Positions 18,711-49,640 of a stretch of 64,000 bases of DNA are shown here, piece by piece. This DNA is from Halorussus vallis (lineage in GTDB: Archaea > Halobacteriota > Halobacteria > Halobacteriales > Haladaptataceae), in the NCBI RefSeq assembly GCF_024138165.1, contig NZ_CP100000.1, forward strand, positions 3,472,001 to 3,536,000. The letters run 5' to 3'. The notes beneath the pieces are model-generated. The model did no database searches and was not told the DNA's origin. It worked only from the letters and a program-made list of their open reading frames with translations. The number at the start of each line of letters is the position of its first letter. Position 1 is the stretch's first letter. The position numbers and the translations under genes are program-made.

Positions 18711-18751
18711 GTCCGGCCCGGACGAGAAATCGAGACAGTCCATTACTCTTT

Positions 18752-18955
18752 GAACCCGGCGCACGCTGGCGTGGCTCCGCGGTTTGGAGTCGCGCCCACG
18801 TCGCGCGAGGGATGACTGAGTGAGCGCCGGAGGCGCGAACGAAGGAGTCGGCTGGGGAAGCGTGTAGCGCGATGCGGTGGCTGTGCGGTTTCATCTGAAA
18901 CGTGTAGGTAGCGGTTGCTGTCGTGGTTGGGGCTGCAGTCGCGGTTCGGGTACTG
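18752..18955 (+). repeat. dispersed modular repeat, copy B
   Basis: A plus-strand copy between two plus-strand genes. Hairpin arms are gcgtggctcc (18769-18778) and ggagtcgcgc (18786-18795), pairing through two G-U wobbles where copy A has Watson-Crick pairs. Then come CGCGCGAGGG, a gcgcc-gga-ggcgc hairpin, the core gagtcggctggggaagcgtg (about 18845-18864) and a diverged GGTTGC/GCGGT tail. Confidence 0.82.
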
Positions 18956-20156: not shown

Positions 20157-20176
20157 GCGCGCATTCACTCCGGATT

Positions 20177-20470
20177 TGGCGCGCGCTGGCGCGGCCCCGC
20201 TGTTTGGGGCCGCGCCTACATGCGCGAGGTCTGCACGAGCGAAGCGAGTGCAGGCTCGTCAGAGCGTTGCTCTGACGGTGGATGAGCGAACGAGCGCCAG
20301 CGAGTGAACGAATCGGCTGGGGAGGCGTGTGGCCGTCGCGGTGCGGTGGTGGTGCGGTTTCATAGTCATCGTACAAGTAGCGGTCGCGGTGGCGGTGCCG
20401 TAGGTCGTTTGGACCGTGCGAGTGGCGGTCGCCGTTGGCAGAGTAGAAGCGGTTGCTGTCGGCGGAACGG
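20177..20470 (+). repeat. dispersed modular repeat, copy C (full-length)
   Basis: The most complete single copy. Hairpin 1 arms are gcgcggcccc (20189-20198) and ggggccgcgc (20206-20215). Hairpin 2 arms are cgtcagagc (20257-20265) and gctctgacg (20269-20277). The core aatcggctggggaggcgtgtgg is near 20311-20332, and the GCGGT-rich tail has two units, each with GTR-AGTRGCGGT. It lies between convergent genes. Confidence 0.88.
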
Positions 20471-32926: not shown

Positions 32927-33826
32927 ATGGGATTGCTCACCAAGCTGAAGTCGTTGCTCGGATTCGACGAGGACCGCTCGCAGGTGCGCCGCGGTGACAC
33001 GGGCGTCACCATCGAGCGCGAACCCGGTGAGTCGGCGGAACCCGACACCGAATCCGAAAGCGCCGTCAAGGGCGTCGACACCGGCGCCGAAAGCGAGAGC
33101 GAGAGCCAGAGCGACACCAGCACCGCCAGCGACGTGCGGGGCGTGACCGAAGCGGAACCCGACGCAGAATCCGAGGCCGAGACGGAGACCGAACCGGCCA
33201 CCGAGGCCGAGGCCGAAACCGAGGAACCGTCTAGCGCCGAGGCGGAACCCGAAGCCGAGTCCGAAGCCGAACCCGCGGTCGACGAAACCGAACCGGCGGA
33301 AGACGCCGAACCCGGGGAGGACGCCGAATCGGAAACCGACGAGGTCACGGAACCCGAAGCCGAGGTCGAGGCCGAACCGGAAACCGACGAGGTCGCGGAA
33401 TCCGAACCCGAACCGGAGTCCGACGCCGAGGCCGGGGTCACAACCGAGGATGTGACGACCGCGCCCGAGGCCGAGAGCGCGCCGTCCCAGACCGACGAGG
33501 CCGCAGAACCGTCGGAGGCGACACAGCCGTCGACCGACGCCGCCATTCCCGACCAGAGCGCGGGCGACGAACCCGAGCCGACGCCCGAGGATACCGAAGA
33601 CGAGGCCGAACTCGAACCGGACGAGGCCGCCGAGGAACCGGTCGGCGAGGGCGCGCCCCTCGACGACATCAAGGGCATCGGATCGGCGTACGCCGAGCGA
33701 CTCCGCGACGCCGGCGTGGCCGACGTTGCGGAACTGGCGCGGGCCGACGCCGACCAGCTCGCCGATGAGACGGGGCTGTCCGAAAAGCGCATCTCCGGCT
33801 GGATCGAGCGCGCCCAGGAGTACTGA
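32927..33826 (+). CDS. acidic repeat protein with C-terminal helix-hairpin-helix
   Basis: A 299-residue protein. The first 30 residues are ordered ([17 protein letters not shown]). Residues 35-235 form a long Glu/Pro/Ala/Thr-rich region of EPEAE-like repeats, almost certainly disordered and highly charged. Residues 241-299 hold a helix-hairpin-helix of the ribosomal-S13/DUF4332 type ([20 protein letters not shown] and a second helix pair). HHH modules bind DNA or RNA backbones. It sits between aroE and pabB with small gaps, so it is probably co-transcribed. Confidence 0.75.
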
Positions 33827-33911: not shown

Positions 33912-35555
33912 ATGAGCGACCCGACCGTGGCGACCGACCGGGAGACGTTCCGCGAGACGGCCGCCGGCGCTCCCGCGGGCGCGCGAGTCCCGGTCGAAGT
34001 CCGGGTCCGCGTCGCCGACCCGTTCGAGGCCTACCGGCGGGCGCGCGACGGTTCCGGTGGCTTCTACCTCGCCACGACGGGCGGCCAACCTGGCTGGGGG
34101 TACTTCGGCGTCGAACCCGCGGAGCGACTGACGACCCACGGGGAGGCGACAGTGCTCGGCGACGACTCCGCGAGTCCCAGCCTCGCCGCCCTCGACGCTG
34201 CCCTCGCCGGTGAGCGACTCGTCCGGGGCGACTGCGAGGTTCCCTACCCCTGCGGGCTGTTCGGCTGGCTGTCCTACGACCTCGTGCGCGAACTGGAAGA
34301 CGTCCCCGAACGAGCAATCGACGACCGCGGGTTACCGCGGGTGCAGTTCGGGCTGTACGACTGCGTCGCGGCGTGGGAAGAACCGCGAGACGCGCCGGAC
34401 GCCGCGCTCGCGGCGTCCGGCGCGTCTCGAAATGATGAGCGGCGAAGCCGCGAGCCGCGAGGTTCGGGCGACGCGGACACCGCGTCGCCCGAACCTCGGA
34501 GTAGCGAGCGAGGAGGAACGACTCGCGAGCCGAGGACGTCCGAGGGCGGAACGACGCTCCGCATCACCGCTTGCCCGCGACTCCCGGCCGACGCGGACCT
34601 CGACGAAACCTACGAGCACGCACGAGAACGCGCGCTCGCCCTCGCTCGCGCCGCGAGCGAGGGCGAGCGCACGGTGGGGCCGCCGCGCGTCGACGCCGAA
34701 ACCGCCGAGTTCGAGAGCGACTGCGGGCAGGACGCCTACGCCGAGGCCGTCCGCCAGGTGAAGGAGTACGTCAGGGACGGCGAGACGTTCCAGGCCAACG
34801 TCTCCCAACGCCTCGTCGCGCCCGCGGCGGTCCACCCCGTCGAGGCGTTCGACGCGCTCCGGCGGGTGAATCCCGCGCCGTACTCCGGCCTGCTGGAGTT
34901 CCCGGGCGTCGACCTCGTGAGCGCGAGTCCCGAACTCCTGCTCGACGTCGACGGCGACCGGGCGGTCACCGAACCCATCGCCGGAACCAGAGCGCGGGGC
35001 GAAACCCCGGCGGAGGACGCGGAACTGGAGGCCGACCTGCTGGGCGACGAGAAGGAGCGCGCCGAGCACGCGATGCTGGTCGACTTGGAGCGCAACGACC
35101 TCGGAAAGGTCTGCGAGTACGGGTCGGTCGAGGTTTCGGACTACCGCCGGGTCGACCGTTACTCGGAGGTGATGCACCTCGTCTCGGCGGTCGAGGGCCG
35201 CCTGCGTGCCGACCGTGGACTCACAGACGCCATCGCGGCGACGTTCCCCGGCGGGACCATCACGGGCGCGCCCAAACCCCGTACGGTGGAGATCATCGAC
35301 GAACTCGAATCGACTCGTCGGGGGCCGTACACCGGGAGCATCGGCGTCCTGGGATTCGACGACCGCGCGACGCTGAACATCGTCATCCGGACGCTCGTCC
35401 GGTATCGAGACGAGTACCACCTCCGCGTCGGGGCCGGCATCGTCCACGACTCGGTGCCCGAGCGCGAGTACGACGAGACGCTGGCGAAGGCGCGTGCCTT
35501 GTTGAACGCGGTGGACGAGGCTTTAGGTGGAGAGAAGCGGCTGGCGGTGGAGTGA
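33912..35555 (+). CDS. pabB: aminodeoxychorismate/anthranilate synthase component I
   Basis: A 547-residue chorismate-utilising enzyme. The C-terminal catalytic half has [65 protein letters not shown] and [20 protein letters not shown], all complete. The N-terminal half has [12 protein letters not shown]. Between them lies a roughly 60-residue Arg/Ser/Glu/Gly-rich insertion built on two long inverted repeats. With pabA and pabC downstream it probably makes 4-amino-4-deoxychorismate; anthranilate synthase is the alternative. Confidence 0.88.
34387..34428. repeat. inverted repeat 1 inside pabB
   Basis: Perfect 20-bp arms (34387-34406 and 34409-34428) with a two-base loop. They encode the Asp/Ala-rich start of the insertion in PabB. 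Confidence 0.7.
34458..34498. repeat. inverted repeat 2 inside pabB
   Basis: Perfect 19-bp arms (34458-34476 and 34480-34498) with a three-base loop, 29 bp after the first inverted repeat and in the same insertion. Confidence 0.7.
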
Positions 35556-35580: not shown

Positions 35581-35850
35581 ACCGCAACGGCGACCGCTAC
35601 TCACACTCCACAACTGGAACCGCGACTGCTACCGCAACCCCGGCCGCTACTTACACGATGCAGATGAGTAGCCGCACTGCCACTGCAACCCACATGCCTC
35701 CCCAGCCGATTCGTTCGCACCGCTCACTCGGTCGTCCCTCGCGCGAGTTGTCGCGCACCGTCGGAGCGAAGCTCCGACGAGCCTTCCTTCGTTTCACTCA
35801 GGAAGACCACGAGGGCACGACCGCACGCGCCACGTCGGCTGTGAGGATGC
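35581..35850 (-). repeat. dispersed modular repeat, copy D1
   Basis: A minus-strand copy: its 5' end is near 35850 and its tail near 35581. Hairpin 2 arms are 35759-35767 and 35771-35779 (cgtcggagc/gctccgacg); the core is about 35691-35714. Hairpin 1 is degenerate. It is head-to-head with copy D2, between pabB and pabA. Confidence 0.82.
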
Positions 35851-35870
35851 GCGCTACCGTCTGTTGGTTA

Positions 35871-36024
35871 TGGCGCGCGCTGGCGCGGCTTTATGCCGCG
35901 CCTTCATTCGTGCGAGGGACGAGCGAACGAAGTGAGCGAGTCGGCTGGGGAGGCACGTGGTCTGCAGTGGCGGTTGCGGTGCGGTTTCTCAATTGTGTCG
36001 TGCGAGTGGCGGTCTGCGGTACGG
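35871..36024 (+). repeat. dispersed modular repeat, copy D2
   Basis: A plus-strand copy 20 bp from the 5' end of D1. Hairpin 1 is short: gcgcggc (35883-35889), loop tttat, gccgcgc (35895-35901). The hairpin 2 module is absent. The core is about 35938-35960 and the tail ends near 36024. Confidence 0.82.
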
Positions 36025-36184
36025 TCGTTCGAATCCACCTTTTGTGGTTCGGTGGAGCATCGGCGTGCGGGCGACTGAACTATCCACAGTCGTAGCGCAC
36101 GAAGCATCGAGAGCGACGCACAGCAGGTAACCGAGACGCTTTAGCCGCCTCGATAGCAACCCTCACCCAACGAGACACGCTCGC

Positions 36185-36751
36185 ATGACCATCCTGGTGA
36201 TAGACAACTACGACTCGTTCGCGTACAACCTCGTCCAGTACGTGGGCGAGTTCGACGACGAGGTGGTGGTCCGGCGCAACGACGCCATCGACCTCGACGG
36301 CCTCGCGGCGCTCGACCCCGACGGCGTCGTGGTTTCGCCCGGTCCCGGCGTCCCCGAGGACGCCGGCCTCTCGATTCCGGTGTTCGCCGAGACCGACTAC
36401 CCCGCACTCGGGGTCTGTCTGGGCCACCAGGCGCTCTGTGCCGCCAACGGCGCGGCGGTCGGCCACGCGCCGGAGGTCGTCCACGGCAAACCTTCGGCGA
36501 TTCGCCACGACGGCGCGGGCGTCTTCGCCGGCCTCCCCGAGCGCTTCGAGGTCGGGCGCTACCACTCGCTGTCGGTCGAGGAGGCCGACCTCCCCGACGC
36601 GCTGGTCCCGTCGGCCCGGACCGACGACGGCGTGCTGATGGCGGTGCGCCACCGCGAGCGCCCCCACATCGGCGTTCAGTTCCACCCCGAGAGCATCCTG
36701 ACCGACTGCGGGAAGCGACTCGTCGAGAACTTCTGCGAGCGGTGCCGGTGA
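36185..36751 (+). CDS. pabA: glutamine amidotransferase, component II (PabA/TrpG)
   Basis: A 188-residue class I glutamine amidotransferase that supplies ammonia to PabB. It shows IDNYDSFAYNLVQY (7-20), SPGPGVPEDAG (51-61), the nucleophile Cys78 in GVCLGHQAL, and His167 and Glu169 in GVQFHPESIL. It overlaps or nearly abuts pabC 13 bp downstream. A 630-bp gap with two repeat copies separates it from pabB, although the two proteins should form one complex. Confidence 0.93.
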   Translation: MTILVIDNYDSFAYNLVQYVGEFDDEVVVRRNDAIDLDGLAALDPDGVVVSPGPGVPEDAGLSIPVFAETDYPALGVCLGHQALCAANGAAVGHAPEVVHGKPSAIRHDGAGVFAGLPERFEVGRYHSLSVEEADLPDALVPSARTDDGVLMAVRHRERPHIGVQFHPESILTDCGKRLVENFCERCR

Positions 36752-36764
36752 ATCCCTGCCAACA

Positions 36765-37646
36765 ATGCCAGTACGCTACCACGTGAACGGCGACCTCGTG
36801 CCGGCCGAGGAGGCGACCGTGAACGTCCGCGACAGGGGATTCATGTACGGCGACGCCGCCTTCGAAACCCTGCGGGCCTACGGCGGCGAGGTCTTCGAGT
36901 GGGAGGCTCACGCCGAGCGCCTCCGACGGACCTGCGACGCCCTGTCGCTCGACCATGGCCTCTCCGAAACCGACCTCCGCGAGCGAATCGACGAAACCGT
37001 CGATGCCAACGACTTCGAGGAGGCGTACGTGAAACTCTCGATATCCAGAGGCGTCCAGCCAGGAAAGCTCTCGCCCGGCCCCGTCGAGGACCCCACGGTC
37101 GTCGTCTACGTCGCGGAACTCCCGCGGGGCGGTGCGAGCGAGGCGAGCGAACCGGTCTGGGACGGGCACGCCCGCGCCGAAGTCGTCGAAACCCGCCGGA
37201 TTCCCGACACCGCGATACCCGCGAGCGCGAAGACCCACAACTACCTCAACGGGATTCTCGCCCGACTGGAACTCGGCGAGGACGCCGACGAGGCCCTGCT
37301 TCTCGACGCCGACGGGAACCTCGCGGAGGGCGCGACGAGCAACCTCTTCTTCGTGACCGACGGCGCGCTCAAGACCCCGAGCCTCGACGGCCCGATTCTC
37401 CCGGGTGTTACCCGCCGGTTCGTCCTCGAACTCGCCGCCGACGCCGGAATACCTGTCGAAGAGGGAACCTTCGACCCAGCTGACCTCCGCGAAGCCGACG
37501 AGGCGTTCTTGACGAACACGACCTGGGAGATTCGACCGCTGGCGTCGGTCGACGGCGAGGACGTCGGCGGCGGGCCGGTCACGGACGAGTTAATCCGGGC
37601 GTTCGACGCGCGCGTCGAACGTGAGTACTACGCGACGGACGAGTAG
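36765..37646 (+). CDS. pabC: class IV aminotransferase / aminodeoxychorismate lyase
   Basis: A 293-residue fold-type IV PLP enzyme. It shows RDRGFMYGDAAFETLR (22-37), the PLP lysine at about 156 in ASAKTHNYLNG, EGATSNLFFV, and ILPGVTRRFVLELA. The position behind pabA fits a lyase that releases pyruvate from aminodeoxychorismate to give p-aminobenzoate. Branched-chain or D-amino acid aminotransferase activity cannot be excluded by sequence alone. Confidence 0.82.
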   Translation: MPVRYHVNGDLVPAEEATVNVRDRGFMYGDAAFETLRAYGGEVFEWEAHAERLRRTCDALSLDHGLSETDLRERIDETVDANDFEEAYVKLSISRGVQPGKLSPGPVEDPTVVVYVAELPRGGASEASEPVWDGHARAEVVETRRIPDTAIPASAKTHNYLNGILARLELGEDADEALLLDADGNLAEGATSNLFFVTDGALKTPSLDGPILPGVTRRFVLELAADAGIPVEEGTFDPADLREADEAFLTNTTWEIRPLASVDGEDVGGGPVTDELIRAFDARVEREYYATDE

Positions 37647-38289: not shown

Positions 38290-38618
38290 TCCCTGCTCCA
38301 AGAGCTACTTCCCGTGAACCGCGACTGCTACTTTCACGACTCCGCAAACTGCGACCGCCACTCCCACTCCACGATTGAGTGACCACCACCGTCCCGCAAC
38401 AGCCACACGCCTCCCCAGCCGACTCCTTCGTTCGCGCCTCCGGCGCTCACTCAGTCATCCACCGTCAGAGCAAAGCTCTGACGAGCCTTCGGGAGCGTCA
38501 GCGACCGAAGACCTCGCGCGACGTGGGCGCGACTCCAAACCACCGGAAGACAACCGCGTCTTCCGAGGTCACCCTCGCTTCGCTCGCGTGACCGCGGAGT
38601 CGCGCCAGCACGCGCCAC
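38290..38618 (-). repeat. dispersed modular repeat, copy E (expanded hairpin)
   Basis: A minus-strand copy between convergent genes. Hairpin 1 arms are 38527-38536 and 38596-38605 (gcgcgactcc pairing with ggagtcgcgc), but the loop has grown to 59 bp, holding two more hairpins (ggaagac/gtcttcc at 38545-38564 and ggtcac/gtgacc). Hairpin 2 arms are 38463-38471 and 38475-38483; the core is about 38402-38425. Confidence 0.85.
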
Positions 38619-49196: not shown

Positions 49197-49432
49197 GGTT
49201 TAGCAGCCGCAACCGCCACTTCGACAGCGAACGCTACTCGCACTCCACAAATGAAACCGCCCCGCCACCGCACGCCACACGCCTCCCCAGCCGATTCGCT
49301 CACTCGCTGCGCTCGTTCGCTCATCCACCGTCGGAGCAAAGCTCCGACGAGCCTTCGGTCGCCGACGCTCCCGAAGACCTCGCGCAACGTGGGCGCGGCA
49401 CGAGGCCGCGCCAGTGCGCGCCACGTGGAAGG
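49197..49432 (-). repeat. dispersed modular repeat, copy F1
   Basis: A minus-strand copy: hairpin 1 arms 49393-49399 and 49405-49411 (gcgcggc/gccgcgc), hairpin 2 arms 49329-49337 and 49341-49349 (cgtcggagc/gctccgacg), core about 49274-49298, and a GCGGT-type tail to 49197. It faces copy F2 head to head. Confidence 0.85.
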
Positions 49433-49454
49433 CCAAGTATCGCGAATCTTTCCA

Positions 49455-49640
49455 ACCGAATCGGCGCGCGCGGTCGGCTCCTCGCGAGCCGACAGGTTCG
49501 CGCGAGGGACGACTGAACGAGCGTCAGCGAGTGAAGGAGTCGGCTGGGGAGGGGTGTGGACCGCGGTTGCAGTGGCGGTGCGGGTACTCAGTTGTATCGT
49601 GTGAGTGGCGGTCTGCGCTACGGGCGCGGTGCAGTAGGAT
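49455..49640 (+). repeat. dispersed modular repeat, copy F2
   Basis: A plus-strand copy 20-odd bp from F1. Hairpin 1 is replaced by a different stem (gtcggctc / gagccgac) at the same place; then CGCGCGAGGG, the core about 49537-49559, and the tail. Hairpin 2 is absent, as in D2. Confidence 0.8.

Follow-up and report, generated by a model that had tools for sequence, protein, structure and literature searches.

The two facing repeats that occupy most of the space between pabB and pabA in Halorussus vallis belong to a high-copy family of intergenic elements, and the pair is probably a formerly mobile, structured repeat of the REPIN/BIME kind that happens to sit at the pab locus. The earlier note on this DNA had suggested that the pair could separate or attenuate expression of pabA relative to pabB; a pab-specific split or attenuator is not well supported, since the genome contains about 35 such pairs and gaps of every orientation hold such elements.

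Results

The repeat pair between pabB and pabA

The window (the whole 64,000-nucleotide stretch analysed, to whose numbering the positions below refer) carries the pab genes on its plus strand, their identities resting on NCBIfam models with cut-offs as follows: pabB (aminodeoxychorismate synthase component I, 33912–35555, an ORF whose start was chosen) lies upstream of the repeats and scores above the cut-off of TIGR01824 (PabB-clade2); pabA (the glutamine amidotransferase component, 36185–36751) lies downstream and scores above that of TIGR00566 (trpG_papA); and the pabC-like class-IV aminotransferase/lyase ORF that follows (36765–37646) falls below every equivalog cut-off. The pabB–pabA gap measures 629 bp, of which the element covers about 70%, and the pabA–pabC gap 13 bp, so that the spacings first reported (about 630 bp, mostly repeat, and 13 bp) were confirmed. 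Another ORF, at 32927–33826 between an aroE-like gene and pabB, has a long acidic Glu/Pro/Ala low-complexity stretch and a helix-hairpin-helix-like C-terminal end.

The pair is real. A profile HMM finds two ~170-nt units facing head to head in the spacer: the alpha-type unit D1 on the minus strand (35641–35851 after refinement; HMM match 35853–35635, E 3.1e-34) and the beta-type unit D2 on the plus strand (35853–36020; HMM match 35851–36020, E 5.3e-36). The 20 bp once placed between them do not exist; the units abut. The left arm is the longer (219 nt) because a two-hairpin module of ~50 nt, read from the sequence at about 35760–35813 on the minus strand, is inserted in the D1 head; a like module splits HMM hits elsewhere. 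The D1 core is at 35697–35710 within this minus-strand unit, and an extra tail-only piece of a unit lies on the same strand at 35584–35637 (HMM positions 120–174, E 9.7e-5). In D2 the features are all on the plus strand: a head hairpin (35874–35914) that follows the covarying consensus structure, with an outer stem (35874–35879 with 35909–35914) and an inner stem (35882–35889 with 35895–35902); a middle hairpin (35918–35942) in which base pairs alternate with GA/GA steps; and the core GTCGGCTGGGGAGG (35940–35953). This core and the G-runs that follow it (GGYTGGGGAGGCGTGTGG) provide four G-runs that may form a two-layer G-quadruplex in high KCl. There is a short T-run near 36040, just downstream of the pair.

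The spacer transcript is predicted to fold strongly (−337.8 kcal/mol, z = −16 against shuffles), as the idea of a long read-through hairpin would have it, but the D1 and D2 arms are only about 69% identical over 143 model positions, so the predicted long duplex is interrupted.

A dispersed family of intergenic repeats

The H. vallis genome contains 105 matches to the pair, itself included, and 117 exact copies of the 14-mer core RTCGGYTGGGGAGG, compared with none for a reversed-pattern control, which is far beyond chance. Within 78 stretches (37 taken at pair matches, 40 at core sites, plus the window) the HMM defines 84 elements, all of them intergenic according to a self-trained gene caller. 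Head-to-head (−/+) pairs are present in 35 of the 84 and absent from 49, and the tail-to-tail (+/−) arrangement does not occur. The gaps that hold them are co-directional in 44 cases, divergent in 23, convergent in 16 and undetermined in one, against a background of 176, 67 and 67, respectively, among all gaps examined. Singles in co-directional gaps lie in the sense orientation 10 times and antisense 15 times, and several plus-strand singles start 6–73 bp past a stop codon. No two of the units compared are 95% identical.

The profile HMM also finds further members in the window itself, namely two plus-strand singles (2637–2800 and 18743–18921), a plus-strand unit split by an inserted module (20161–20387), a minus-strand unit (38347–38502) and a second head-to-head pair (49223–49619). 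Inserted modules, each adding one or two hairpins in or beside the head, are seen at 20161–20387, at 49354–49443 and at about 35760–35813 in D1, and the element is modular in this sense.

The unit heads fall into two types, alpha and beta. Of 22 fully typed pairs 18 combine one of each, and the 36 typed singles comprise 34 beta and 2 alpha. Are the two arms of a pair kept complementary to one another? Within-pair arm identity is 0.679, compared with 0.714 (sd 0.009) when arms are exchanged between pairs, so the long D1/D2-type hairpin shows no sign of selection, and we rejected it as a selected structure since the arms do not co-vary and are less alike than under random pairing. Origin of the pair by local inverted duplication was rejected on the same figures and because the arms are different subtypes. 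Doublet units are no better conserved (0.731) than singles (0.745). The doublet would then be an ancient composite that spread as a whole, with the long D1/D2 duplex following simply from both arms being members of the family.

Strand-specific fold of the unit

RNAalifold, applied to 50 units, predicted two hairpins, head and middle, that are rich in compensatory changes; read along one strand, the ~170-nt unit consists of head hairpin, middle hairpin, conserved G-rich core and tail. The head hairpin covaries and has an outer CGCGCG stem and a variable inner stem. For the 21 stem pairs the paired share of cells is 97.2% (83.0% in shuffles) and double changes number 157 (45.1 in shuffles), a comparison that overstates the significance because copies within a genome are related, with many variable pairs showing three or four pair types. 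The signal collapses once the partners are slid.

The middle hairpin is an alternation of Watson-Crick pairs and near-invariant GA/AG (tandem G·A) steps. The two outer GA steps are present in 86–94 of 95 H. vallis units. Its variable positions are paired in 87% of cells, a figure that drops to 48% if arms are swapped among units. In the congener G006 another form often takes its place, and pairing in the H. vallis register is 46% versus 31%. The most frequent form of the middle hairpin, GATGAGCGAACGAGCGNAGCGAGTGAGCGAATC, has much AGCGA and many G·A steps, like DNA that forms AGCGA-quadruplexes (PMC5442326), but the covarying pairs between the GA steps support a hairpin and there is no evidence for a tetrahelix.

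GA steps on the plus strand become T-C mismatches on the opposite strand, and G-U exceeds A-C in the stems, consistent with a fold of the plus strand. The plus strand also folds better in 82 of 82 units, although this comparison is biased by its G-richness. From these sequence comparisons, each unit is structured on one strand, the plus strand, and could work as RNA or single-stranded DNA alike. With Rfam covariance models nothing reached the gathering score in the window, and nothing matched at E 1 in the pab spacer.

The pab spacer in relatives

Spacers were compared only where pabB adjoins pabA. In other families of the order they measure −7 to 68 bp, and within the genus those that lack a unit measure 116 bp (G006), about 130 bp (G002) and 140 bp (G014). 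A degenerate part of a unit is present in the 206-bp spacer of G007, and single units in those of G004 (261 bp) and G017 (392 bp); G015 and a second G002 locus have short spacers. In a neighbouring genus, two species have unit-free spacers of 220 and 241 bp, two further loci are short, and one spacer of 616 bp contains a repeat pair. Thus spacers above 250 bp (261, 392, 616 and 629 bp) with pabB beside pabA are found only in species carrying units, and the claim that most of the added length comes from the repeats is upheld. The expectation that relatives without the pair would have closely spaced genes was borne out in part: no unit-free spacer is as long as 629 bp, but unit-free relatives still have 116–241 bp.

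A putative pabA promoter box, CCGAGACGCTTTAGC (36131–36145, plus strand), lies downstream of the repeats. A CCGAR...TTTAGC-like box stands 44–57 bp before pabA in H. vallis and in six congeners in which pabB is adjacent; further species have comparable boxes too, including some where the two genes have separated. Five congeners have pabA away from pabB. In G008, G013, G010, G005 and G016 neither pabB nor pabC was found within 9.5 kb around pabA, and the promoter-like box before pabA is kept. From these boxes, pabA appears to have acquired a start of its own without the repeat playing a part.

Occurrence and inheritance

Sampling across the order (146 genomes, 57 genera) finds the core in 72 genomes and 31 genera, at up to 117 copies per genome. 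Congeners have 0–100 copies, several having none or nearly none (0 in G009, 1 in G013). G002, G011 and G019 have 79–100 each, and the range for G011, G017, G002 and H. vallis is 85–117. Viral carriage was considered and rejected, the core plus TGTGG having no match in IMG/VR contigs; a plasmid search returned three haloarchaeal records only, with partial matches. We found no description of the family in Rfam or in the open-access literature, where no haloarchaeal paper contains the core sequence.

Comparison of the 84 H. vallis elements with 60 places in G006 that were read as stretches shows that for 12 of the 84 the orthologous G006 gap also holds an element, as against about 1.5 shared gaps expected by estimate (84 × 60 / about 3,500 gaps). 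Eleven of the 12 keep their orientation and 11 their pair or single state, as read from the hits; most H. vallis elements lack a counterpart among the 60 places. Orthologous copies are 0.730 identical, random copies within H. vallis 0.726 and random copies between the two genomes 0.710, and subfamily markers track the genome, not the site. At those orthologous sites where both copies could be parsed, the head stems remain stable while differing in sequence, which suggests that the units are more than dead copies. This pattern could stem from concerted evolution, from re-insertion at preferred sites or from selection on structure.

In G006 (loci L208–L267) most units show a middle hairpin of the GAGGACCGCA type, a core with CGGT and tails with TAGCTAG, features seldom seen in H. 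vallis, and the same gap may hold different subfamilies in the two genomes. Two tail-to-tail (+/−) neighbours, an arrangement absent from H. vallis, occur in G006 (C1:743097–743277 and 2786518–2786648).

Discussion

Relation to known repeats

REPINs and BIMEs are extragenic doublets of REP sequences with units of 20–40 nt; REPs are palindromic units with a GTAG/CGTC tag and an associated RAYT (Y1 transposase), and the doublet units of REPINs are more conserved than singlets (PMC3116915, PMC2817692, PMC3733652). The present repeat resembles them in being high-copy and extragenic, in occurring as head-to-head inverted doublets (35 of the 84 elements) and singles, in its strand-specific hairpins with mismatches, and in its patchy distribution among related genomes. 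It differs in that the unit is ~170 nt long with at least two hairpins and a different conserved core, the doublets are asymmetric (alpha/beta) and their units no more conserved than singles (above), the host is archaeal, and neither a GTAG tag nor a RAYT requirement is seen. G002, G011 and G019 have no Y1_Tnp match despite their many cores, so the repeat does not depend on a Y1/RAYT transposase; nor is there a unit close to the H. vallis Y1 genes (a scan of two Y1_Tnp loci), and on these grounds we rejected IS200/IS605 or RAYT as the current mobiliser.

The PATEs, MITEs and SMRs of Haloquadratum walsbyi are likewise short, non-coding, dispersed haloarchaeal elements; PATEs, which are heterogeneous in sequence, bear two near-terminal palindromes and are linked to IS605-type transposons (PMC3119063). 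Palindromes and heterogeneity are shared with PATEs, but no unit matches at the two H. vallis Y1_Tnp loci scanned and high-copy genomes without Y1 genes exist. Compared with MITEs, copies are too diverged for terminal repeats or target duplications to be set. Several points stand against the supposed mobility: no insertion or excision was seen among the units compared, their divergence prevents the setting of ends and the search for target duplications, and no two reach 95% identity.

What the pair might be

A REPIN-like history is the most likely explanation; structure, doublets, dispersal and patchiness are observed directly, whereas mobility and its machinery are deduced. A non-autonomous doublet would have spread long ago in the REPIN/BIME manner through a machinery acting on folded single strands, that is, a structure-recognising activity, after which copies would mostly have been inherited in place. 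At pab the repeat would lengthen the spacer and perhaps block read-through, and most likely does nothing else that is specific to the locus. By comparison, a cis-acting attenuator or insulator that parts pabB from pabA expression through a read-through hairpin seems quite improbable: the strong predicted fold of the spacer (above) and the units in the pab spacers of G019 (a pair), G004 and G017 (single units) are in its favor, but the arms fail to co-vary, the opposite of what a selected hairpin would show, the promoter-like box is 3′ of the repeats and is kept in relatives with and without them, the G006, G014 and G002 spacers lack a unit, and about 35 like pairs lie elsewhere, divergent gaps included. 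We regard bidirectional transcription terminators or 3′-end stabilisers of adjoining genes as highly improbable, since 23 of 84 elements occupy divergent gaps, beside no gene end, and the co-directional singles (10 sense, 15 antisense) often have their structured strand outside the mRNA; the singles that closely follow stop codons and the T-run near 36040 are what such a function would predict.

It is unlikely, though less so, that the units are resident functional elements kept in place by selection, either small structured RNAs or folded-strand protein sites with roles in chromosome organisation, replication or repair (the same estimate covers both versions). Position, orientation and pair or single state are kept at most of the 12 orthologous gaps, stems are intact despite changed sequence where parsed, and strong covariation and within-genome subfamily markers point the same way; against it are the absence or near-absence of the repeat in several congeners, the lack of counterparts for most H. 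vallis elements among the G006 elements fetched, and the lack of a match to any known RNA family in Rfam. Also unlikely, in our estimation, if slightly less so, is a broader reading in which this is a widespread, undescribed haloarchaeal family of dispersed sites structured as single strands (RNA or single-stranded DNA with tandem G·A hairpins), their positions and fold kept across species and their sequences homogenised in each genome.

The pab-specific story is therefore unlikely and gives way to a genome-wide one that is testable. With strand-specific G·A hairpins and alpha/beta doublets, the family resembles bacterial REPINs without their transposase, which would imply either a different mobiliser or a cellular role; if the dispersed-site reading is true, some factor must still recognise the structure today, at 100 or more positions on the chromosome.
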